Virus record (IMG/VR): IMGVR_UViG_3300037161_000124
Location: 1 to 26,813 of that record
Source of the DNA: a virus
DNA length: 26,813 nt
Strand: one strand, 5' to 3'
This document shows positions 4,680 through 26,813 of this stretch, piece after piece. The first letter of the stretch is position 1; every line of letters starts with the position of its first letter. The notes beneath the pieces are model-generated. The model searched no databases. It saw only the letters and a program-made list of their open reading frames with translations, and had not been told where the DNA came from. The position numbers were made by a program, and so were the translations under genes.

Positions 4680-4708
4680 TTTGGCTGATGGCTGACGGCT
4701 GAAGGCTA
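4680..4708. repeat. heptamer element between gp4-like and gp10-like genes
   Basis: TTTGGCTGA, then GCTGACG and GCTGAAG units, ending GGCTA, whose CTA is the minus-strand TAG of 4706-5392. It fills almost the whole gap upstream of the gp10-like start. Confidence 0.8.
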
Positions 4709-5392
4709 TCCGGCTTGCACCACTTGCTTCCCCGGACTCTGCGGCATCGGCTGATCGGGCGGCGGATCGCTGCCGAAGATTCTGGAGTTAGCCAGCCCGA
4801 TATCGGACTTCGACTGTTGCGCCGCGGCCATCAAGCTCTGGGTCACCACCTTGCCGTACTGCTCCGCCAGGTCTACGGCCAGATTTAAGGTCAAGCCGCG
4901 GGCATATCCGGGTGCCAGGGTGATTGCAGTCAAATTCAAATCCGGCCATTGGGCCAGCGGGGCGAAGTAGAACAGGTGCAAAGTCCCCGTCGCGGTGGGC
5001 CACCAGAAGATATTGGAGTTGGGTACCGCGTAGTCGCAGAACAGCTTGGTGGCGAACTTCCCCGATCGGGAATTGTCCACGATCTCGGACCACTGCGCCG
5101 GAGACAGGATCTCGACGGGCGACTGCAAGCTGCCGGAATCGCAATAGGCCGCGGTGATCTTCGAGGGCCGGTATCCCAGGCTGAACGGCTGGTTGGCGCC
5201 CGCCAGGTTGATCTGACCTTCGGAGATCTGCATGATGAGCAGCCCGAGAGCCGCCCACTGGTCGACCAGTTTGTTGAGCGAGATCAATCCGTCGCTGAGT
5301 TCGGCGCCGTTGAGTGTTTCGCCGGAGGCTATCGCCTGGATGGCGCGCGCGGCGTCGGTGATTAGGGCTTGGGCAGTATAGGTTTGAGCCAT
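4706..5392 (-). CDS. gp4-like tail accessory factor, paralogue A
   Basis: 228 residues. The pattern is that of P22 gp4-type tail accessory factors: helical N-terminus (YTAQALITDAARAIQAIASG), LNKLVDQW, a beta segment with YRPSKITAAYC, FCDYAVPNSNIFWWPTATGTLHLFY, then LAPGYARGLTLNLAVDLAEQYGK. These blocks line up with the other three paralogues in this window: DYxxP near a WP-x3-GTLxL strand, then PPGY-x3-L-x-x-NLA. Gp4 multimers bind below the portal and connect it to gp10. P22 gp4 is about 166 residues, so these are long versions. GGAGAAATCCCAATG provides the start context. Confidence 0.75.
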   Translation of the reverse strand: MAQTYTAQALITDAARAIQAIASGETLNGAELSDGLISLNKLVDQWAALGLLIMQISEGQINLAGANQPFSLGYRPSKITAAYCDSGSLQSPVEILSPAQWSEIVDNSRSGKFATKLFCDYAVPNSNIFWWPTATGTLHLFYFAPLAQWPDLNLTAITLAPGYARGLTLNLAVDLAEQYGKVVTQSLMAAAQQSKSDIGLANSRIFGSDPPPDQPMPQSPGKQVVQAG

Positions 5393-6110: not shown

Positions 6111-6549
6111 CGGGATGATGTCTAACACGTTTCCCAAGCCTTACGAGCTTGCGGCCAAGGCCCTGTTCTATGAGGTAATGGAATGGAGGTACGGCCCAAC
6201 TCGCCGAGCCAGCTACGATGAACTAGCGGAGCAGCACCAGCTAGGCGAGTTGCTCTTGGCCCACTTCAGCCGCTTCGAGACGGGATTGCAGCAGATGATC
6301 GACAAGCTGATGGAACTGAACACTGAGGCCATGTCTCTCAGGCCGCCGCAACTGCTGGTGGTGGGTGAGGGTCAAGCGTGGCAGATAGCCAAACGTCTCG
6401 GCATTCCCTACTCCGAGCCAGCCACCAGCCACCAATCACCAGCCACCGGATCTACGGCGTCGCCGGCTTTCCCTGTTCCAGATCGATCTCCTGCAAAGGC
6501 TGCTGTAGAGGCACCGGACGCAGCGGCGCCGCTGGCGCACCAATCGTAA
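6103..6549 (+). CDS. accessory protein with repeat-derived C-terminus
   Basis: 148 residues. Residues 1-100 (EWRYGPTRRASYDELAEQH, FSRFETGLQQMIDKLMEL) look like an ordinary helical protein. From about residue 105 the frame runs through a heptamer tract (SEPATSHQSPATGS) and then about 98 bases antisense to the 3' end of the gp4 paralogue 6452-7207 before stopping. The tail is therefore probably an artefact of repeat insertion that removed the original stop. Family unknown. It is coupled to the upstream gene by an 8-base overlap. Confidence 0.55.
   Translation: MPDGMMSNTFPKPYELAAKALFYEVMEWRYGPTRRASYDELAEQHQLGELLLAHFSRFETGLQQMIDKLMELNTEAMSLRPPQLLVVGEGQAWQIAKRLGIPYSEPATSHQSPATGSTASPAFPVPDRSPAKAAVEAPDAAAPLAHQS
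6418..6450. repeat. GGTGGCT-type heptamer tract
   Basis: Read on the minus strand it is GGTGGCT-type units directly after the TAG stop of the gene 6452-7207. On the plus strand it is coding, giving ATSHQSPAT in the gene 6103-6549. Confidence 0.75.
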
Positions 6550-7207
6550 CGGCGTTGAGTTGCGCCAGACGCGCTTTGGTCGCCTCGGCTTTCTGCCCCA
6601 CCCACTGATCCAGAATGGCACCCGGAAACTCCGAAGCCAAGACCACGGCCAGGTTGAATTTCAGGGTTTCCAAGTATCCAGGCGGAAAGGCGATTACATC
6701 GCTCAGATACACCACGCCGGCCAAGGGTTTGTAGCTCCACAAATTCAGCGTTCCCCCGTTGGCGGCCGCCGGCCACAGCATGATGGTTGCCTGCGGGTAG
6801 CCGTAATCGCACACCAGGTAATCGGCGTAGCTGCCGGTCACCGTGCGATCGATGATGGTTTCAAAGCGCTCCGGGGTGACCACTTCCACCGGCATAGAAC
6901 CGTCCGTAGTGGAAACCGAGGCGGCGCGAATCTTTTCCGGCCGCGGGGTGGTAATGTTGCCGCCCGTGCCCCAGGTGTAGCTGGCCGCTCCTGTAAGCGA
7001 GAAGGTTTCGTTCACTGTCTGGTAGATGGTGGCGCCGTCCACCGAGAAGCCGTCGATGATGGCGTTGAGCGCATCGAGACAGATCTGATAGTCCTGGGAG
7101 GCGGGTACGGTGTTGCCGCCCTGTTGAGTGGTGGCGAAGGCCGAGTTGGGCGCCAGGACGTGAATCAGGCGTAGAGCTTCATCGCAGATGTTTTGGACTG
7201 ATGGCAT
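6452..7207 (-). CDS. gp4-like tail accessory factor, paralogue B
   Basis: 251 residues. It is closely related to the next gene upstream: both share DEALRLIHVL, QGGNTVPA, IDGFSVDGAT, LTGAASYTWG, RPEKIRAA, FETIID, LVCDY, VVYLSD and FPPGYLETLK-NLAV-LASEF. The fold pattern (helical start, beta middle with DYxxP, PPGY-x3-L motif, helical end) matches the P22 gp4-type family. The Pro-rich tail (PLRPVPLQQPLQEIDLEQGKP) is also shared with its tandem copy. Gp4-type factors form the ring between portal and tail hub. No clear Shine-Dalgarno; ACTCCCATG precedes the start. Confidence 0.75.
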   Translation of the reverse strand: MPSVQNICDEALRLIHVLAPNSAFATTQQGGNTVPASQDYQICLDALNAIIDGFSVDGATIYQTVNETFSLTGAASYTWGTGGNITTPRPEKIRAASVSTTDGSMPVEVVTPERFETIIDRTVTGSYADYLVCDYGYPQATIMLWPAAANGGTLNLWSYKPLAGVVYLSDVIAFPPGYLETLKFNLAVVLASEFPGAILDQWVGQKAEATKARLAQLNAVTIGAPAAPLRPVPLQQPLQEIDLEQGKPATP

Positions 7208-7228: not shown

Positions 7229-7987
7229 TTACGGCCGCTGCGGGCTGCCTTGCGCAATGTCGCTCCCGGCAACCGGCTGCTGAATGGGAAGCGGCGGCAG
7301 GGGCGGCATCGGCTCGCCGATGGTCACCATGTTGAGCGCCGCGAGACGCGCTTTGCAGTCCCCGGCCTTCTGGAATACCCACTGATCGAGACGGCCCGTC
7401 GGGAATTCCGAGGCCAGCATCACCGCCAAATTGAGTTTCAGGGTTTCCAGATATCCAGGCGGAAATGAGATGGCGTCGCTCAAGTAAACCACCGCGGTCA
7501 GCGGCTTAATGCTCCACAGGTCCAGGGTGCCGGTGGCCACGATGGGCCAGAGCGAGATGGTGGCCAGGGGATTGGCGTAATCGCACACCAGCATGTCGGC
7601 GAACTTGCCTGCCCTGCTGATGTCGATAATCGTCTCGAACTTTTCCGGCGTGACGATCGCCACGCGCATGGATGCCGTAGTGGATTGGATTACCGCGGCC
7701 GCGCGGATCTTCTCCGGACGCGCCGTATTGATGACGCCGCCAAGGCCCCAGGTGTAGCTGGCAGCTCCGGTCAAGGCAAAGGTTTCGTGCACCACCTGGT
7801 AGACCGTTGCCCCGTCCACCGAGAAGCCGTCGATCACCTGGTTTAGGGCGTCGAGCGCAATTTGATACTCCTGGCAGGCTGGAACGGTGTTGCCGCCCTG
7901 CACCTGGGTGGCAAAGGAGGCGTTGGCCCGCAGGACGTGGATGAGACGCAATGCCTCGTCGCAAAGGTTTTGAACTGTGAATGCCAT
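7229..7987 (-). CDS. gp4-like tail accessory factor, paralogue C (tandem copy of B)
   Basis: 252 residues, lying 21 bases upstream of paralogue B and sharing long identical blocks with it, which points to a tandem duplication. Differences concentrate in the region after RPEKIRAA and in the C-terminal Pro-rich tail. The start is preceded by AAGGCTTTACCCCC, nearly identical to the leader of 1565-1723. The two copies may make different rings or one may be a spare; the divergence suggests both are under selection. Assignment to the gp4-type family is from the conserved DYxxP and PPGY-x3-L-x-x-NLA blocks. Confidence 0.75.
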   Translation of the reverse strand: MAFTVQNLCDEALRLIHVLRANASFATQVQGGNTVPACQEYQIALDALNQVIDGFSVDGATVYQVVHETFALTGAASYTWGLGGVINTARPEKIRAAAVIQSTTASMRVAIVTPEKFETIIDISRAGKFADMLVCDYANPLATISLWPIVATGTLDLWSIKPLTAVVYLSDAISFPPGYLETLKLNLAVMLASEFPTGRLDQWVFQKAGDCKARLAALNMVTIGEPMPPLPPLPIQQPVAGSDIAQGSPQRP

Positions 7988-9115: not shown

Positions 9116-9155
9116 TTTGGCTGAATGCTGACGGCTGAAAGCTGAAAGCTTCTTA
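9116..9155. repeat. heptamer element after 9153-9575
   Basis: TTTGGCTGA left end, GCTGACG and GCTGAAA units, GCTTCTTA right end with the TAA stop of the coiled-coil gene. Same architecture as 2098-2137 and 17050-17089. Confidence 0.85.
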
Positions 9156-9575
9156 CGCCGCTTTCGCTTTCTTGCCGGCTTGCTTCTCGGCCAGCTCCGC
9201 CAGCAGCGATTCGATCTCCCCCCGCTGCGTTTCGATGCGCGCGTTGAGCGCCTCGACCTGCGCCGCGGTTTGCTCCGCCCGCTCTTTCCAGGATTTGTCG
9301 AAGACCACTTTGAGGTCGGCGATTTCCATCGTCAGTTTGATGCAGTTGGGGCATTCGCCGGCTTTGGGCGCGGTTGTGGCGGGCTCTTCCGTAACGTGCG
9401 GCTGGCGGCCGTATCCGTCGGCGAGCGCGACTTCTTCCTCTTCGAGGCTCTTGACGAATTTGATGGCGCCGGATGCGTGGTGCATGACGCGGGGATATTC
9501 CTGATGCTGGTAGGGCGGCGCAACGGGTTTATCCGTGGGGCGGCCGTTGCCGAAGCTGTTTTCTGGTCTTGCCAT
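9153..9575 (-). CDS. phage structural-accessory protein with C-terminal coiled coil
   Basis: 140 residues. YPRVMHHASGAIKFVKSLEEEEVALADGYG matches a short module I know from many phage proteins (P-x-x-MYH-x-[DS]G-x3-V-x-s-x-EE-x3-L-GxGW). CPNC follows at about residues 75-78. The last 60 residues (KLTMEIADLKVVFDKSW... EALNARIETQRGEIESLLAEL) form a long coiled coil with an Ala/Lys tail. AAGGAG lies about 13 bases before the ATG. A needle-like or head-associated role is possible, but the family function is not established to my knowledge. Confidence 0.6.
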   Translation of the reverse strand: MARPENSFGNGRPTDKPVAPPYQHQEYPRVMHHASGAIKFVKSLEEEEVALADGYGRQPHVTEEPATTAPKAGECPNCIKLTMEIADLKVVFDKSWKERAEQTAAQVEALNARIETQRGEIESLLAELAEKQAGKKAKAA

Positions 9576-9665: not shown

Positions 9666-10439
9666 ATGAGCGCCCCGACAAGTACCCGATTTGATGATCT
9701 CGTGAGCCTGATTGCGAGCCTGAACGACAACCCTGCGAGGGGCTGGCAGGCTTACCCGTGTATCGACTTGCCGTATCCGAAACATGGAGGCTATTACGCG
9801 GTGATCCAGGTGCCTGGGGGCCGCCGCAAGGAAGCGCATTTAGTGGCCTACGAGTTGGCTTATGGAGAGATACCCCACGGGCACACCGTTCGCCATCACT
9901 GCCATGCGAGTTGGTGCATCAGGCCAATTCACTTCTATACCGAGCCGAGCGCCAATTGGTACTACCTCGTTGAAACGGTTCTCGGTTTAAGCGAACCGCC
10001 CGATGCGTCCTGGCAGGATTACCCCTGCGTGGAGTGGCCATGCGGAGAGAAGGAACGTCAAACCGTCTGGGTGGCAGATGGCAATTGGCACCTCGGGAGC
10101 CCCGTGCTTACCTATCGTGCGGCATACCACATCGCGAAAGGCCCGATACCTCCGGGTTATGCCGTCTGCCATCACTGCGACAATCCAAGATGCTTTCGCC
10201 CCTGCCATCTTTTCGCGGCTACGCAGGAAGATAATCTTCGCGATTGTAGGGAGAAGGGCCGCAACACCAAGGGCAGCGCCTGCCATATTGCCAAGCTCAC
10301 GGAAGACGACGTGCGGAAGATCCGCAGTCTCGTGCGCGACGGCTGTCGTTACATGGCCATCGCCGAGAGTTTTCACGTCACCAAAAACACCATCTGGCAC
10401 ATAGCGAACCGGCGTAGTTGGAAACACGTATACCCTTGA
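9666..10439 (+). CDS. HNH endonuclease with two HNH cores and C-terminal HTH
   Basis: 257 residues. The second core is canonical for the phage HNH_3 group: AVCHHCDNPRCFRPCHLF (His169-His170, Cys171, Asn173, His181) followed by DNLRD. The first core, TVRHHCHASWCIRPIHFY (His77-His78 to His89), keeps His and Cys positions but lacks the DNxxD part. Each core is preceded by a similar W-Q-x-YPC block (WQAYPC at 27-32, WQDYPC at 116-121), so an HNH unit has been internally duplicated. Residues 211-250 (LTEDDVRKIRSLVRDG...) form the helix-turn-helix usual in homing-type enzymes. It lies convergent to the gp4 paralogue 10445-11272, and is probably a free-standing homing endonuclease. Confidence 0.85.
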   Translation: MSAPTSTRFDDLVSLIASLNDNPARGWQAYPCIDLPYPKHGGYYAVIQVPGGRRKEAHLVAYELAYGEIPHGHTVRHHCHASWCIRPIHFYTEPSANWYYLVETVLGLSEPPDASWQDYPCVEWPCGEKERQTVWVADGNWHLGSPVLTYRAAYHIAKGPIPPGYAVCHHCDNPRCFRPCHLFAATQEDNLRDCREKGRNTKGSACHIAKLTEDDVRKIRSLVRDGCRYMAIAESFHVTKNTIWHIANRRSWKHVYP

Positions 10440-10444
10440 GCCGC

Positions 10445-11272
10445 TTAGACGTATTGGTTGGAAAGTATGTTGAAGTTTGAACCTCTCGTTTGTCCCACAG
10501 CCATATTCCCCCGCTCGCACTGCTGGATGTAGCTCACCGCATTGATGCTCTTGATGAGCGCCAGCGCCCGCCCGGCCATGGCGACCGCCAGCGGCGACAA
10601 GTTGGCCTTCGGCCCGTATCGCGCGGCAATCCTCAGCGCCAGGTTGTACTGCAAGGCGTCCACGTATTCCGGCGGCGTGATGATGGGATCGAGCGGCGAT
10701 TGAAACTGCTGCACGGTCTGCCAGGTGTACAGCGCGCCTTGGGTGACGTAGGCGTTTGCCGGAATCGGCCACAGGTAGATCTTTCCATTGGGTACCGCGG
10801 GCTCGTAATAGAGTTTCGTGGGATTGCCCGAGGTCAGGTCCTTGGGACTCAGGGCCGCCCACTGCTGCGCGGTGAGTTGATCGAAAGGTTCCTCGATCAC
10901 CGGGTTGACGTTGGTGAAGAGGTACGACGCCCACTCGATGCGCTGTGGCCTTTCGATGGGGATGTCGGTCAGCCCGCTCAGCCCAACGAGATACGGAAAG
11001 TCCGGGCCGCCCTGCCCGATGTTGATCGCAAACAGGGTGCGCAGGATGGCCGGCACCATGTTCTGCTGCGCTTTCCAGCTTGAAACCAACTGGTTCAATT
11101 CCCAAAGTGAATCCTGGTAGTCGTAGATCGAGTAGCCACGCCCAGCCATCTGCATGACGCCGGCGATGCGCAGCGCATGGTAGATGAGATCGCCCACGAT
11201 GGGCGCGTTCGCCGGATTGTTCGCGTACTGCGCGCCGGTGAATTGGCCGAAGTTGATAGTGGAGGTGGACAT
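10445..11272 (-). CDS. gp4-like tail accessory factor, paralogue D
   Basis: 275 residues from ATG 11272-11270 (MSTSTINFGQFTGAQY). The frame is open further upstream to 11512, but that part covers the promoter and two small genes of the other strand, so the internal ATG is preferred. LIYHALRIAGVMQMAG, LWELNQLVSSW, RPQRIEWASYLF, YYEPAVPNGKIYLWPIPANA and ITPPEYVDALQYNLALRIAARYG are the gp4-type blocks also seen in paralogues A-C, but this copy is the most diverged and longest. It probably forms another ring or adaptor in the portal-tail junction. Confidence 0.7.
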   Translation of the reverse strand: MSTSTINFGQFTGAQYANNPANAPIVGDLIYHALRIAGVMQMAGRGYSIYDYQDSLWELNQLVSSWKAQQNMVPAILRTLFAINIGQGGPDFPYLVGLSGLTDIPIERPQRIEWASYLFTNVNPVIEEPFDQLTAQQWAALSPKDLTSGNPTKLYYEPAVPNGKIYLWPIPANAYVTQGALYTWQTVQQFQSPLDPIITPPEYVDALQYNLALRIAARYGPKANLSPLAVAMAGRALALIKSINAVSYIQQCERGNMAVGQTRGSNFNILSNQYV

Positions 11273-11293
11273 GGGGGAACCGAGGGCTATACT
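11266..11293 (+). promoter_or_regulatory. strong leaderless-type promoter for 11300-11539
   Basis: TGGACA (11266-11271), 16-base spacer, TATACT (11288-11293), then GGACGC and ATG at 11300. Its -35 overlaps the start codon of the gp4 paralogue on the other strand, so the two expression units may interfere. Confidence 0.6.
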
Positions 11294-11299
11294 GGACGC

Positions 11300-11440
11300 A
11301 TGCCCCAAATCGAAGTTGAGTTCGCGGGAAAGAAATACGGGCCGTTCGCTTCGGTCCAGGACGCCTTGGCGCAAGGGTTCCACATCCCGGACCTGTGCCC
11401 CTGCAAGAACTGCAAAAAGCTGAGAGGAGAGAAAGGCTGA
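11300..11440 (+). CDS. 46-residue Cys-motif mini-protein
   Basis: MPQIEVEFAGKKYGPFASVQDALAQGFHIPDLCPCKNCKKL and a short basic tail. It has two beta-like strands and a helix, then CPCKNCKK, a compact Cys cluster that could bind zinc or be a redox site. The ATG lies six bases after a TATACT box, so the mRNA is probably leaderless. Family unknown. The next small gene starts four bases after its stop. Confidence 0.5.
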   Translation: MPQIEVEFAGKKYGPFASVQDALAQGFHIPDLCPCKNCKKLRGEKG

Positions 11441-11443
11441 CGC

Positions 11444-11539
11444 ATGCTGAGAGATTGCGACGACTGCGGAAATAGCTACGACGATGCGGAGTGCCTCACC
11501 TGCTGCCCGCACTCCCGGCGATACGGTTCATGTTTTTGA
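11444..11539 (+). CDS. 31-residue Cys-rich mini-protein
   Basis: MLRDCDDCGNSYDDAE, then CLTCCPHSRRYGSCF and stop. CDDC and CLTCC resemble two zinc knuckles. The start is four bases after the stop of 11300-11440, with AGAGGAGAG about 20 bases upstream. It is short, so coding status rests on the Cys pattern and tight spacing. Confidence 0.4.
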   Translation: MLRDCDDCGNSYDDAECLTCCPHSRRYGSCF

Positions 11540-15644: not shown

Positions 15645-15917
15645 TTACGCCGTGGCGGCAGGCGCGGGATCGGCGGCCGGCGGCGGTGCTCCACCCGCGG
15701 CGGCGGCGGTTTCCTTGCCGAAACGGAAGCGGCGATCATGTTCAAGTTGGATCAGCTTGTCCGGCAGCGCCTTGGCGACGTTGGCTAGGGTCTTCGCCAC
15801 ACGTTCGTCGGCGTGCTTGCCGCGGTCGAGATGCGCCTCTATGCTGGTGCCCTCTTCCTGAAATGGGTCCTTGAGGGCGTTCGCTACGTCCTTCATGTAC
15901 TCAGTTGGCTGTTTCAT
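15645..15917 (-). CDS. small helical protein with Ala/Pro tail, unknown
   Basis: 90 residues: MKQPTEYMKDVANALKDPFQEE and a charged helical body (HADERVAKTLANVAKALPDKLIQLEHDRRFRFG), followed by an Ala/Gly/Pro-rich low-complexity tail. GAAGGAGC lies about ten bases before the ATG, a good ribosome site. There is no membrane segment and no recognised family. It sits between two unknown late genes and is probably a minor virion or assembly factor. Confidence 0.55.
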   Translation of the reverse strand: MKQPTEYMKDVANALKDPFQEEGTSIEAHLDRGKHADERVAKTLANVAKALPDKLIQLEHDRRFRFGKETAAAAGGAPPPAADPAPAATA

Positions 15918-15960
15918 GAGACTGGTTGCTCCTTCGGTTTCAAGGATACCATAGCCAGCT

Positions 15961-16434
15961 TTACGCCTCGGCCAGCGAGTAAGCCAACAGATCGCGGAAC
16001 CATTCGACCTTCGCCCGTTCGGCGGTGTCGCGGATCACATAGAGCACACTGAAGGTGATCGCGGTTGAATTGTCCGGCCGATTCTCACGCCGCATGTGCA
16101 TGTCGAGCCCGGAGTACGAATCGACGGCGCGATCCTCGTTGTTTTTCAACGGAATGGGAAGCATGAAGACTTCTCCGCTGGCCGATACCGACGCGCGAAG
16201 GGTGCGGGCCATTCCTACGACAGTTCCCTTGATCCAGCGTTCAAAGGCGTCGACGCAGTGAAACTGCCAGCCATCCGGTAGGACGATTGTGCCCTCCACC
16301 AGTTGCGGCGGTCCCTGCGTAGCGGGTGCCAGCGCGAGGCGTGGTCGCGTTATGGGCGCTCCCGCAAGCGCTTCAGCCAGTATTTCTGCCGCAACGTAGA
16401 GCATGGCGACGGGATTCAATTCATCACGCTTCAA
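15961..16434 (-). CDS. late-region protein, unknown
   Basis: 157 residues (MKRDELNPVAMLYVAAEILAEALAG...). A helical N-terminus precedes a beta-rich middle (GTIVLPDGWQFHCVDAFERWIKGTVVGMARTLRA, EVFMLPIPLKNNED) and a region ending DTAERAKVEWFRDLLAYSLAEA. No family recognised. The ATG lies inside the last codons of the GroES-like gene (11-base overlap), so translation is coupled; Met11 is an alternative start that would still overlap slightly less. It could be a tail-completion or head-tail protein by position, but nothing in the sequence proves it. Confidence 0.55.
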   Translation of the reverse strand: MKRDELNPVAMLYVAAEILAEALAGAPITRPRLALAPATQGPPQLVEGTIVLPDGWQFHCVDAFERWIKGTVVGMARTLRASVSASGEVFMLPIPLKNNEDRAVDSYSGLDMHMRRENRPDNSTAITFSVLYVIRDTAERAKVEWFRDLLAYSLAEA

Positions 16435-17044
16435 GTACGCCCTCGATCTTCGATTTCGGGATGATGCAGTCAGCCAGCGGCTCTACAGCCCACAACTCGG
16501 GATGGAGCGTCGCCACTTCCGCGTGGGTTTCGCAAACGCGAAAGCTCTGACGCCCTTCGTTACCGATACCAAAGGCCCGATACTTCGCCTCTTTTAAGCA
16601 ACGCACCAGACGGTTCTGATGATCGCCCATCTTCCAAGACACTTGGCAGATATCCGCTTCAAGTACGCCCTCGATCTGCGATTCCGGGATGATGCGGTAG
16701 CGCACGCCGTCCTCAGCGTAGTCCTGGCCGCCCTTGTGTGCGTAGAGCACCAGGTCGCCGACGTTCACGTCGAGGGGGATGCGCTCAGTGTGCGCAAACT
16801 CTTCCCACACGCCCTGCGACGATCCTTGCCAGTCGGGGATGAACCGCTTGCCGTACTTGTAGCCTTCGCCTACGGCAACGACGTGCCCGCGATCGGTGTA
16901 ATTGCCGCTCGTGCCGCCCTTCTCGTCGAAGGTTCCCGCGTGCAACGATGTACCGGGCATGACGACGCGGCTGGACGGTGCGGTACGCTCGCTTTCGGCG
17001 AGGGGGCGAACCACTACAGCATTGAAGAGAGGCTGGAATTTCAT
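16424..17044 (-). CDS. GroES-like co-chaperonin with duplicated C-terminus and Cys domain
   Basis: 206 residues. Residues 1-130 follow the Cpn10 pattern: PLFNAVVVRPLAESERT, GHVVAVGEG, VNVGDLVLYAHKGGQDY and YRIIPESQIEGVLE, with an acidic/Gly-rich loop at 35-50 in place of the usual mobile loop. Ordinary GroES ends there. Here a 76-residue extension follows, with Cys133, Cys149, Cys171 and His174 (zinc-domain style, VCETHAEVATLHPELW), and ends IIPKSKIEGVLEA, repeating residues 118-130. A phage GroES, like T4 gp31, would partner host GroEL to fold the coat protein. No Shine-Dalgarno is visible; a heptamer element lies just upstream. Confidence 0.75.
   Translation of the reverse strand: MKFQPLFNAVVVRPLAESERTAPSSRVVMPGTSLHAGTFDEKGGTSGNYTDRGHVVAVGEGYKYGKRFIPDWQGSSQGVWEEFAHTERIPLDVNVGDLVLYAHKGGQDYAEDGVRYRIIPESQIEGVLEADICQVSWKMGDHQNRLVRCLKEAKYRAFGIGNEGRQSFRVCETHAEVATLHPELWAVEPLADCIIPKSKIEGVLEA
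16427..16467. repeat. direct repeat, copy 1, C-terminus of the GroES-like gene
   Basis: 41 bases matching 16655-16695 with two mismatches at an offset of exactly 228 bases (76 codons). It encodes IIPKSKIEGVLEA at the end of the protein. Confidence 0.85.
16655..16695. repeat. direct repeat, copy 2, end of the Cpn10 core
   Basis: Partner of 16427-16467; encodes IIPESQIEGVLEA. Recombination between the copies would remove 228 bases in frame and leave a normal-length GroES of about 130 residues. Confidence 0.85.
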
Positions 17045-17049
17045 GGAAG

Positions 17050-17089
17050 TTTGGCTGATGGCTGAAAGCTGAAAGCTGACAGCTTCTTA
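17050..17089. repeat. heptamer element between 17087-17443 and GroES
   Basis: TTTGGCTGA left end, GCTGATG, GCTGAAA and GCTGACA units, GCTTCTTA right end carrying the TAA of 17087-17443. It nearly fills the gap to the GroES start. Confidence 0.85.
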
Positions 17090-17443
17090 CACGTTCAAAT
17101 CTGCTGACACTCTTACTGGATCTGCTGCTGTTCCGTCCACCCAGATAGTAGACAGATCAATCGCCGGCGCCAGTGAAAACTCGATAGCTCCGGGGGGGTC
17201 GGCCCAGGAGCCGCCGGGAGCCGTGGCCGTCGCTGGCGACAATTCGCCGCTCACGTCGTTGGCATTGGTCGTTGCGGGCGTGCGGCCTCCGTAGATTCCC
17301 GCCATGACATAGCCCAGGCCGGTGCCTCCGGTAGCCATTTGGATGAAGACCCGGTTGGCCATCGGGTTCTGTACCAGGCCGAGGGCGACGGAGAGATTGA
17401 CCGGCGTTCCGGGGTTTAGCGTGATCTTGACATTTCTTCGCAT
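17087..17443 (-). CDS. small beta-rich decoration-type protein
   Basis: 118 residues (MRRNVKITLNPGTPVNLSVALGLVQN, MANRVFIQMATGGTGLGYVMAGIYGG..., GAIEFSLAPAIDLSTIWVDGTAADPVRVSADLNV). The alternating hydrophobic pattern, Gly/Thr/Ala richness and the final WVDGTAADPVRVSAD strand suit a head-decoration or small fibre protein. The start is preceded by AAAGGATTCTCCC, the recurrent leader. It lies between the exported repeat-domain protein and GroES, in the coat-proximal part of the operon. The family is not recognised with certainty. Confidence 0.55.
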   Translation of the reverse strand: MRRNVKITLNPGTPVNLSVALGLVQNPMANRVFIQMATGGTGLGYVMAGIYGGRTPATTNANDVSGELSPATATAPGGSWADPPGAIEFSLAPAIDLSTIWVDGTAADPVRVSADLNV

Positions 17444-17456
17444 GGGAGAATCCTTT

Positions 17457-17539
17457 GGTGGCTGGTGGATAGTGACTGGTGGCTGGTGGTTTTACTGAAA
17501 GCTGAAAACTGAAAGCTGAAAGCTGAAAGCTGACAGCTT
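17457..17539. repeat. long composite heptamer tract
   Basis: GGTGGCT units with a GGATAGTG interruption, then five CTGAAAG-type units. The first 35 or so bases nearly repeat the tract at 26000-26035. Confidence 0.85.
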
Positions 17540-17546
17540 TTGAAGG

Positions 17547-17584
17547 CAGGGGACCTCCGAGGGAGAAGGCATGGAGGCCCCCTG
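17547..17584. terminator. strong hairpin downstream of 17627-18595
   Basis: CAGGGG-A-CCTCC (17547-17558) pairs with GGAGG-C-CCCCTG (17573-17584), 11 pairs with one mismatch and a 14-base loop. It lies just after the minus-strand gene; no T-run follows, so a transcript-end stabiliser is as likely as a terminator. Confidence 0.45.
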
Positions 17585-18595: not shown

Positions 18596-18619
18596 GGTCG
18601 TAGTTTATCCTTTAGTGAA

Positions 18620-18690
18620 GGGTGGGTGGTGGCTGGTGGCTGGTGGTTTAGAACAAACCTACCGACCACTAGCCACTAATCACTAGCCCC
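18620..18690. repeat. heptamer tracts in both orientations after coat
   Basis: GGTGGCT units at 18620-18648 and the inverted CACTAGC/CACTAAT units at 18667-18688, next to the coat stop at 18683. Confidence 0.7.
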
Positions 18691-20188: not shown

Positions 20189-20929
20189 ATGGATCTGGAC
20201 GTTGTACGTTGCGGACGCTGTTTGCAGGAAAAGCCGCTGACATCCTTTGGGAACATCAGGCGAACCGGAAAAACCTGCAAGGACTGCCATCGTGCACGTA
20301 TGCACGAGTGGCACCGCAACCATCCAGATTACAACCGAAAGTGGCTGGAGGCCCACGGTCGCAAAGTCGGCGACGACCGCAGGACAGGGAGGCCCAGTCT
20401 TTTTCGTTCGGTGGCGGAACGGCAGGAGCACAAAAAAGAGTACATGCGCCGCTGGCGCGAAAGCCACCCCAATAGCGCCCGGGAGTGGCGGAGCCGCAAT
20501 CCCAACTACGGCCGCCAAAGAAAGCGAACTTCTCCCGACAAAGCGCGGGTCTATAACCAGAAATACAGGGACGGGAACGCCGCTGAACTTAATGCGAGGT
20601 CCAACGCCCGGCGAAGAGAGCGGCGCGTTACGGATGCCGAGTACGCCCAGCGAGAGCGGGATCGCTGCCTTCGTCAGTGGAAGAATCGCCGGTTCTCCCT
20701 TTGCGATCGAATTAAGCTGCTCCGTGCGCAGGATGGAAAATGCGCTAATCCGGCATGTCAAAAAGAATTGGGCGAGGCGTTCCACATCGACCACATAATA
20801 CCTTTGGCGCGTGGTGGAACGAGTGATCCCGAGAATCTTCAACTTCTTTGCCCGCGCTGTAATTGCAGCAAGGGTGCCAAAGATCCCCAAGAGTGGCTGA
20901 CGCAGGTAAGTTCGGAGCGTACAGCTTAA
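20189..20929 (+). CDS. HNH endonuclease with N-terminal zinc motif
   Basis: 246 residues. An N-terminal CGRC...CKDCH zinc knuckle pair (Cys8, Cys11, Cys30, Cys33) is followed by a highly basic Arg/Asn-rich linker (about 35-165) and a C-terminal HNH domain: CANPAC, HIDHIIPLARGGTSDPENL, LLCPRCNCSKG (Asp201-His202, Asn216, with Cys185/190/221/224 for zinc). This is the common phage HNH/homing arrangement. It lies on the plus strand between scaffold and coat, in one unit with the RHH gene, and is probably an insertion into the head operon. Confidence 0.85.
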   Translation: MDLDVVRCGRCLQEKPLTSFGNIRRTGKTCKDCHRARMHEWHRNHPDYNRKWLEAHGRKVGDDRRTGRPSLFRSVAERQEHKKEYMRRWRESHPNSAREWRSRNPNYGRQRKRTSPDKARVYNQKYRDGNAAELNARSNARRRERRVTDAEYAQRERDRCLRQWKNRRFSLCDRIKLLRAQDGKCANPACQKELGEAFHIDHIIPLARGGTSDPENLQLLCPRCNCSKGAKDPQEWLTQVSSERTA

Positions 20930-24879: not shown

Positions 24880-24920
24880 TTTAGCTTTCAGCTTTCAGCT
24901 TTCAGCTCTCAGGTTTCAGC
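24880..24920. repeat. heptamer tract, opposite orientation
   Basis: AGCTTTC units (24882-24908) on the plus strand, the reverse of most other tracts. It lies beyond the 3' end of 24916-25227, whose TGA stop at 24916-24918 is inside the tract. Confidence 0.8.
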
Positions 24921-25987: not shown

Positions 25988-25999
25988 GGCTGTAAACCC

Positions 26000-26068
26000 G
26001 GTGGCTGGTGGATAGTGGCTGGTGGCTGGTGGTTTAGCTGAGTGCTGAAAGCTGAAAGCTGAAAGCTA
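26000..26068. repeat. long composite heptamer tract
   Basis: GGTGGCT units with a GGATAGTG interruption, then GAGTGCT and three GAAAGCT units, ending at the TAG (26066-26068) of the next gene. Near duplicate of 17457-17539. Confidence 0.85.
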
Positions 26069-26248
26069 CTTGAATATCTCCATCAGCACGGCGCGCGCCC
26101 GCGCGTACCGCTTGCACTCAGAGCAGGCGCATTGCGCCCCGGCCGCTTCAACATGGTCGAGGAGGTATTCCAGTTGCTCGATCAGGATGTCGCCTTCGTC
26201 AGCGGCCAGCGCGGCGGCGGGTGATTTGACTTCCGTTGCAGGCTCCAT
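26066..26248 (-). CDS. 60-residue protein with a Cys cluster
   Basis: 60 residues from ATG 26248-26246, with AAGG nine bases upstream: MEPATEVKSPAAALAADEGD, then LIEQLEYLLDHVEAAGAQCACSECKRYARARAVLMEIFK. CACSEC is a likely zinc or redox site between two helices. A longer frame to 26380 is open but covers the gene 26199-26405, so this start is preferred. Function unknown. Confidence 0.5.
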   Translation of the reverse strand: MEPATEVKSPAAALAADEGDILIEQLEYLLDHVEAAGAQCACSECKRYARARAVLMEIFK

Positions 26249-26729: not shown

Positions 26730-26736
26730 CTCGAAT

Positions 26737-26800
26737 GGCCGCCTAGCCCTGGCCTCATGAACTAGGGCGAAGCGCGGGAACCTTGACCTGCCCGGCGGCC
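26737..26800 (+). ncRNA. candidate structured RNA
   Basis: GGCCGCC (26737-26743) pairs with GGCGGCC (26794-26800), closing a three-way junction with two internal hairpins: GCCCT (26746-26750)/AGGGC (26764-26768) and GGG (26776-26778)/CCC (26791-26793). There is no ORF beyond three codons. It is not a canonical tRNA: the 7-bp outer stem followed by TA looks tRNA-like, but no T-arm or anticodon arm is seen. The minus strand can also fold, so the strand is set only by the promoter. It may continue outside the window. Confidence 0.35.
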
Positions 26801-26813
26801 AATTTCACATCAG

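Follow-up and report, generated by a model that had tools for sequence, protein, structure and literature searches.

A viral GroES-like protein with a conserved Cys/His extension and a repeated gene end at the edge of a non-homologous cassette

Why should a virus-encoded GroES-like gene carry the 3' end of its core twice, in frame, on either side of a Cys-containing insert? The gene lies in a 26.8-kb stretch of viral DNA (26,813 nucleotides, called the window in what follows). The first-pass annotation had proposed a 228-bp duplication through which recombination would switch the virus between a normal GroES and a GroES with an added zinc-like domain. The question has two halves, the nature of the insert and the origin of the second gene end, and these turn out to have separate answers.

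The GroES core and its genomic setting

The GroES-like gene, its two principal parts and the flanking genes that anchor the comparison with related viruses are the following.

16424..17044, (-) strand: 206-aa GroES-like ORF with C-terminal extension, stop included (ORF list, Pfam, PHROG, PDB, NCBIfam)
16655..17044, (-) strand: Cpn10/GroES-like core, residues 1-130, with mid-loops longer than those of cellular GroES (Pfam, PHROG, NCBIfam, PDB)
16475..16654, (-) strand: 60-residue extension, residues 131-190 (also present in the relative L005; dN/dS; low-confidence model)
17087..17443, (-) strand: conserved 118-aa gene upstream, a synteny anchor (81% in L005, 68% in L019)
15645..15917, (-) strand: conserved 90-aa gene downstream, a synteny anchor (87% in L005)

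The GroES ORF is surrounded by head genes of the P22-like podovirus type: the window holds a P22-like head module with portal (phrog_156), major head protein (phrog_283), scaffold (phrog_8865) and head-closure genes. The initial identification of the protein as GroES-like is well founded. The Pfam Cpn10 profile (PF00166) matches at 9.2e-8 (32.5 bits, over the curated cut-off of 21.1), phrog_3188 matches at 4e-6, phmmer matches solved GroES chains in the PDB at E of about 1e-4, and residues 1-128 align to positions 1-94 of the 95 in NCBIfam NF001529, covering the N-terminal strand and the mobile-loop region. The placing of the core's end near residue 130 is borne out by this last alignment and by agreement with the usual end of GroES. 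The NF001529 score is 31 bits, set against a subfamily cut-off of 133, which makes the protein a superfamily member outside any named subfamily; because the named GroES subfamilies score low, it is, by its profile scores, a diverged viral branch of the GroES family. The AlphaFold2 model of the full-length protein, for which the input was only three sequences, has a pLDDT of 34, too low for the beta-barrel or the seven-fold ring to be read from it.

Bacteriophage T4 gp31 and its relatives (PHROG 3188) are likewise virus-encoded members of the GroES family; the one in the window adjoins head genes, and gp31 is not known to have a C-terminal extension comparable to the one described below. There is no GroEL gene in the window or in the contigs of its two relatives, so the protein would have to use host GroEL. 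By analogy with GroES biology, the core would cap host GroEL and aid the folding of virion proteins. Neither sigma-70-type promoters nor terminators were found above chance near the GroES gene.

A search of 2.9 million viral contigs located the GroES protein in four contigs beyond the window's own record, three of them belonging to the window's virus itself (99.98-100% identical over 6.4-15.3 kb). Genome-contig scans gave no relatives of the protein in bacterial genomes or prophages, and phage isolate records gave no match. The collection contains two diverged relatives only: L005 (contig 3300023259_000001, the same as L017), with ~83% DNA identity to the window, and L019 (contig 3300014495_000069), which was reached by way of its major head protein and not through the GroES search. 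L019 supplies the homologue ending at the core that the first-pass annotation had proposed to look for: its syntenic GroES, 55% identical and 135 residues long, ends with RYRIISEAHIEAVLEEGSGF and a stop codon, without the extension.

Other features came to light in these genomes. The major head protein gene of L019 is interrupted by a group I intron (L019:10131-10359; Rfam RF00028, 81 bits); Rfam detects none in the window. Two (+) ORFs of the window, on the opposite strand at 20189-20929 and 9666-10439, were recognized by eye as putative HNH homing endonucleases, and the one at 20189-20929 adjoins the major head protein gene, the gene that has the intron in L019. Four (-) ORFs (4706-5392, 6452-7207, 7229-7987 and 10445-11512) are alike: 6915-7200 and 7692-7977 have 75% DNA identity, and the first matches phrog_12985 and phrog_637 (head-tail adaptor). 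The likeness suggests repeated adaptor-type paralogues. A partial match to int-alpA RNA lies at the contig end, at 26736-26813 (+) (RF02996, 38.4 bits against 35.8). The window also contains two families of dispersed repeats, the first with a 7-base unit present in ~10 copies, many of them in intergenic gaps:

1148-1190, 2099-2141, 9117-9159, 17051-17093, 17491-17547 and 26034-26076, with an inverted copy at 24882-24920: GCTGAAA / AGCTGAA repeat
17450-17492, 18607-18649 and 25993-26035, with inverted copies at 6418 and 24549: GGTGGCT repeat

Both are possibly host-derived or regulatory spacer repeats.

A conserved Cys/His extension

That a distinct, Cys-containing domain follows the core was correctly perceived at the outset. 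The 60-residue Cys/His extension is conserved in L005, whose GroES shares both core and extension and terminates with LWAIEPL and a stop codon, the second repeat copy being absent; C133, H142, C149, C171 and H174 are kept in both proteins. Since the repeat-free L005 gene has the extension, the presence of the extension is independent of the second copy. Comparison of the window with L005 yields 13 silent and 8 replacement changes in the extension (dN/dS about 0.14, as against 0.22 in the core and 0.18 in the head protein), and the same DNA taken in two alternative frames gives values of 0.70 and 1.18; a ratio of ~0.14 implies that the extension is translated and selected in the GroES frame. 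Judged by this pattern of substitution, the extension is a real inherited domain under purifying selection and not a creation of the repeat.

That the window's virus recently gained the extension by insertion into a short GroES is disfavoured: codons 131-150 are no less diverged at silent sites than the core, which makes the extension older than the split between the window and L005. Next to these strongly diverged codons stands a run of 21 codons (151-171; 16532-16594 of the window) in which every base is identical between the two viruses (permutation p = 0.0009); this identity may reflect patchy exchange or extra constraint.

A model of the extension built from two sequences (pLDDT 63) consists of a beta-hairpin and then a helix that begins at C171-x-x-H174. 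It looks like a treble-clef-type metal site, a resemblance only, which Foldseek did not confirm: searching with this weak model returned nothing at E < 0.7. Pfam, PHROGs, NCBIfam and the PDB sequences contain no known family for the extension, tblastn against phages and plasmids gave chance-level matches only, and a literature search found no relevant publication on phage GroES extensions. The cellular world offers a parallel in HspA of Helicobacter pylori, a GroES whose C-terminal extension is His- and Cys-rich and binds nickel (PMC3856676). Both proteins append a Cys/His-containing extension to the C-terminus of a GroES core; unlike that of HspA, the extension of the window protein is a 60-residue viral domain that has 3 Cys and 2 conserved His and for which metal binding is putative. 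The extension would probably bind a metal ion and add a contact with some target.

The repeated gene end and the cassette beyond it

The second half of the question concerns the following elements.

16655..16698, (-) strand: repeat copy 1, the 3' end of the GroES core (IIPESQIEGVLEA), with the L005 state at 3/3 between-copy mismatches
16466..16474, (-) strand: junction codons A-D-C, from the end of the extension to IIPKSK of copy 2 (read from the sequence)
16427..16470, (-) strand: repeat copy 2, IIPKSKIEGVLEA plus flanking bases, absent from L005/L017
16440..16444, (-) strand: GAGGG, Shine-Dalgarno-like by inference, inside copy 2 and five bases before the putative TTG start of the next ORF
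15961..16434, (-) strand: 157-aa ORF, found only in the window's virus, whose putative TTG start overlaps the GroES stop
15952..16477, (-) strand: non-homologous cassette comprising copy 2 and the 157-aa ORF, in place of an unrelated 138-aa ORF of L017 (locus comparison)

The direct copies at 16427-16470 and 16655-16698 agree at 41 of 44 bases (93%), are spaced 228 bp apart and share a reading frame. Only two repeats in all were found over 2 kb, the other being a 13-mer in a low-complexity spacer, and as a sequence match the 44-bp repeat is far beyond chance. The figures first given for the copies (39 of 41 bases over the stretch then compared, a spacing of 228, a common frame) all hold; the term "228-bp duplication" does not, the duplicated unit being 44 bp and 228 the spacing. 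The intervening 184 bp, which encode the extension, occur once only, and this rules out a true 228-bp tandem duplication. An assembly artefact is likewise ruled out: the repeat is the same in four assemblies, and its copies are not identical to one another.

The proposed switch would operate by homologous recombination between the copies, deletion of 228 bp toggling the gene between a normal and an extended GroES. In-frame direct repeats 44 bp long and 93% identical are a plausible deletion substrate, and the mycobacteriophages Island3 and Brujita exemplify such repeats alongside a single-copy sister, as an evolutionary event (PMC3029335). However, the extension of L005 exists without the repeat, so that the L005 GroES could not switch, and deletion would be irreversible unless the insert were resupplied, which amounts to loss rather than switching. 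The two-copy form is present in every assembly of the window's virus (4/4), and a search of IMG/VR with a degenerate DNA pattern of the GroES C-terminus recovered only these five contigs (the window's own record and the four matches) and no deletion allele; the two-copy allele is the only one seen in the assemblies. With the evidence standing in this way against the first proposal, a reversible toggle is highly improbable, and the further notion that the copies recombine at a useful rate, one population making both plain GroES and GroES with a metal-binding arm, is about as improbable.

Could copy 2 instead have a structural role? The second C-terminal segment might be able to take the place of the first in forming the last beta-strand of the ring, in which case the extension would loop out of the barrel and not trail behind it. 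Copy 2 preserves both the frame and the hydrophobic IIP..IEGVLEA pattern, but L005 does without it, and the differences between the copies all fall on one side: copy 1 matches L005 at each of the 3 mismatches and copy 2 departs from it every time, two of the substitutions altering charge (E to K, Q to K). A substitute strand is very unlikely; the sequence of copy 2 suits a relaxed remnant better than a functional duplicate that has been maintained. There are three silent sites at which the two copies share a base that differs from that of L005. This sharing of silent bases points to an origin of copy 2 in the window's lineage or a close sister, with later drift. The L005 locus has no comparable repeat.

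What lies beyond the repeat is more informative about its origin. Homology between the window and L017 runs from 17038 to 16478, where it ends at the last codons of the extension, and is absent until it resumes at 15951, placing the repeat at the border of homologous and non-homologous DNA; the alignment shows copy 2 lying exactly at the left edge of the non-homologous cassette. In the interval bounded by the conserved 118-aa and 90-aa genes the three viruses (window, L005/L017 and L019) differ from one another, which is the pattern expected of a mosaic cassette site. Neither the 157-aa ORF nor a single-copy relative with the same downstream gene was found outside the window's virus.

We think it probable that copy 2 is a recombination scar, left in an inherited, extended viral GroES at the border of a gene cassette that was exchanged. 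An uneven recombination between a genome with the extended GroES and one with a short GroES directly before the 157-aa ORF would have fused the final 44 bp of the short gene to the end of the extension. The reason for their transfer would be that the apparent ribosome site of the overlapping 157-aa gene, and its TTG start, lie within them: with GAGGG and TTG both inside copy 2, a GroES end that travels with the next gene preserves that gene's start. The join would have been in frame by chance, with the old stop lost and 16 residues added.

There is a close phage precedent for a repeated gene end around a small insert. Comparison of mycobacteriophage Island3 genes 67/68 with Brujita reveals a gene 3' end of ~50-60 bp repeated around a small extra coding segment; the sister genome is single-copy, and the explanation offered is recombination between the copies during mosaic evolution (PMC3029335). 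The second copy in Island3 ends a separate 85-residue gene, whereas copy 2 in the window continues the same ORF in frame, and unlike Island3/Brujita the window's virus has no known single-copy sister. The first-pass annotation knew of no counterpart to a switchable extension; this was too strong, for the HspA extension (PMC3856676) and the Island3/Brujita repeat (PMC3029335) precede it.

The repeat in the window could also have arisen locally: slippage or template switching would have placed a second copy of the virus's own 44-bp GroES 3' end after the extension, e.g., while a new downstream gene was being joined, so supplying a ready-made ribosome site and dispensing with a second, short-GroES genome. 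The GAGGG-TTG start of the 157-aa ORF within copy 2 is in keeping with this, as are the window-specific silent bases common to the two copies, which by sequence fit local duplication and the scar equally well. No genome with a short GroES directly before the 157-aa ORF was found, which makes the donor hypothetical and keeps local duplication as the main rival. Against it, copy 2 borders a segment without homology to L017, so that exchange with other DNA occurred there anyway. We consider local duplication rather unlikely and retain the recombination scar as the preferred account.

Implications for viral chaperonins and phage mosaicism

The repeat, if it is such a scar, would provide a clear in-frame example of how gene-by-gene phage mosaicism doubles a gene end and, accidentally, makes a protein longer. 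What is most interesting in the observation is the Cys/His extension, conserved on a viral GroES; it adds modestly to the picture of viral chaperonins. The arm raises the question of substrate selection (coat protein, for example), and if it is functional, the short GroES of L019, the armed GroES of L005 and the window protein, with arm and scar, would constitute a natural comparison series.
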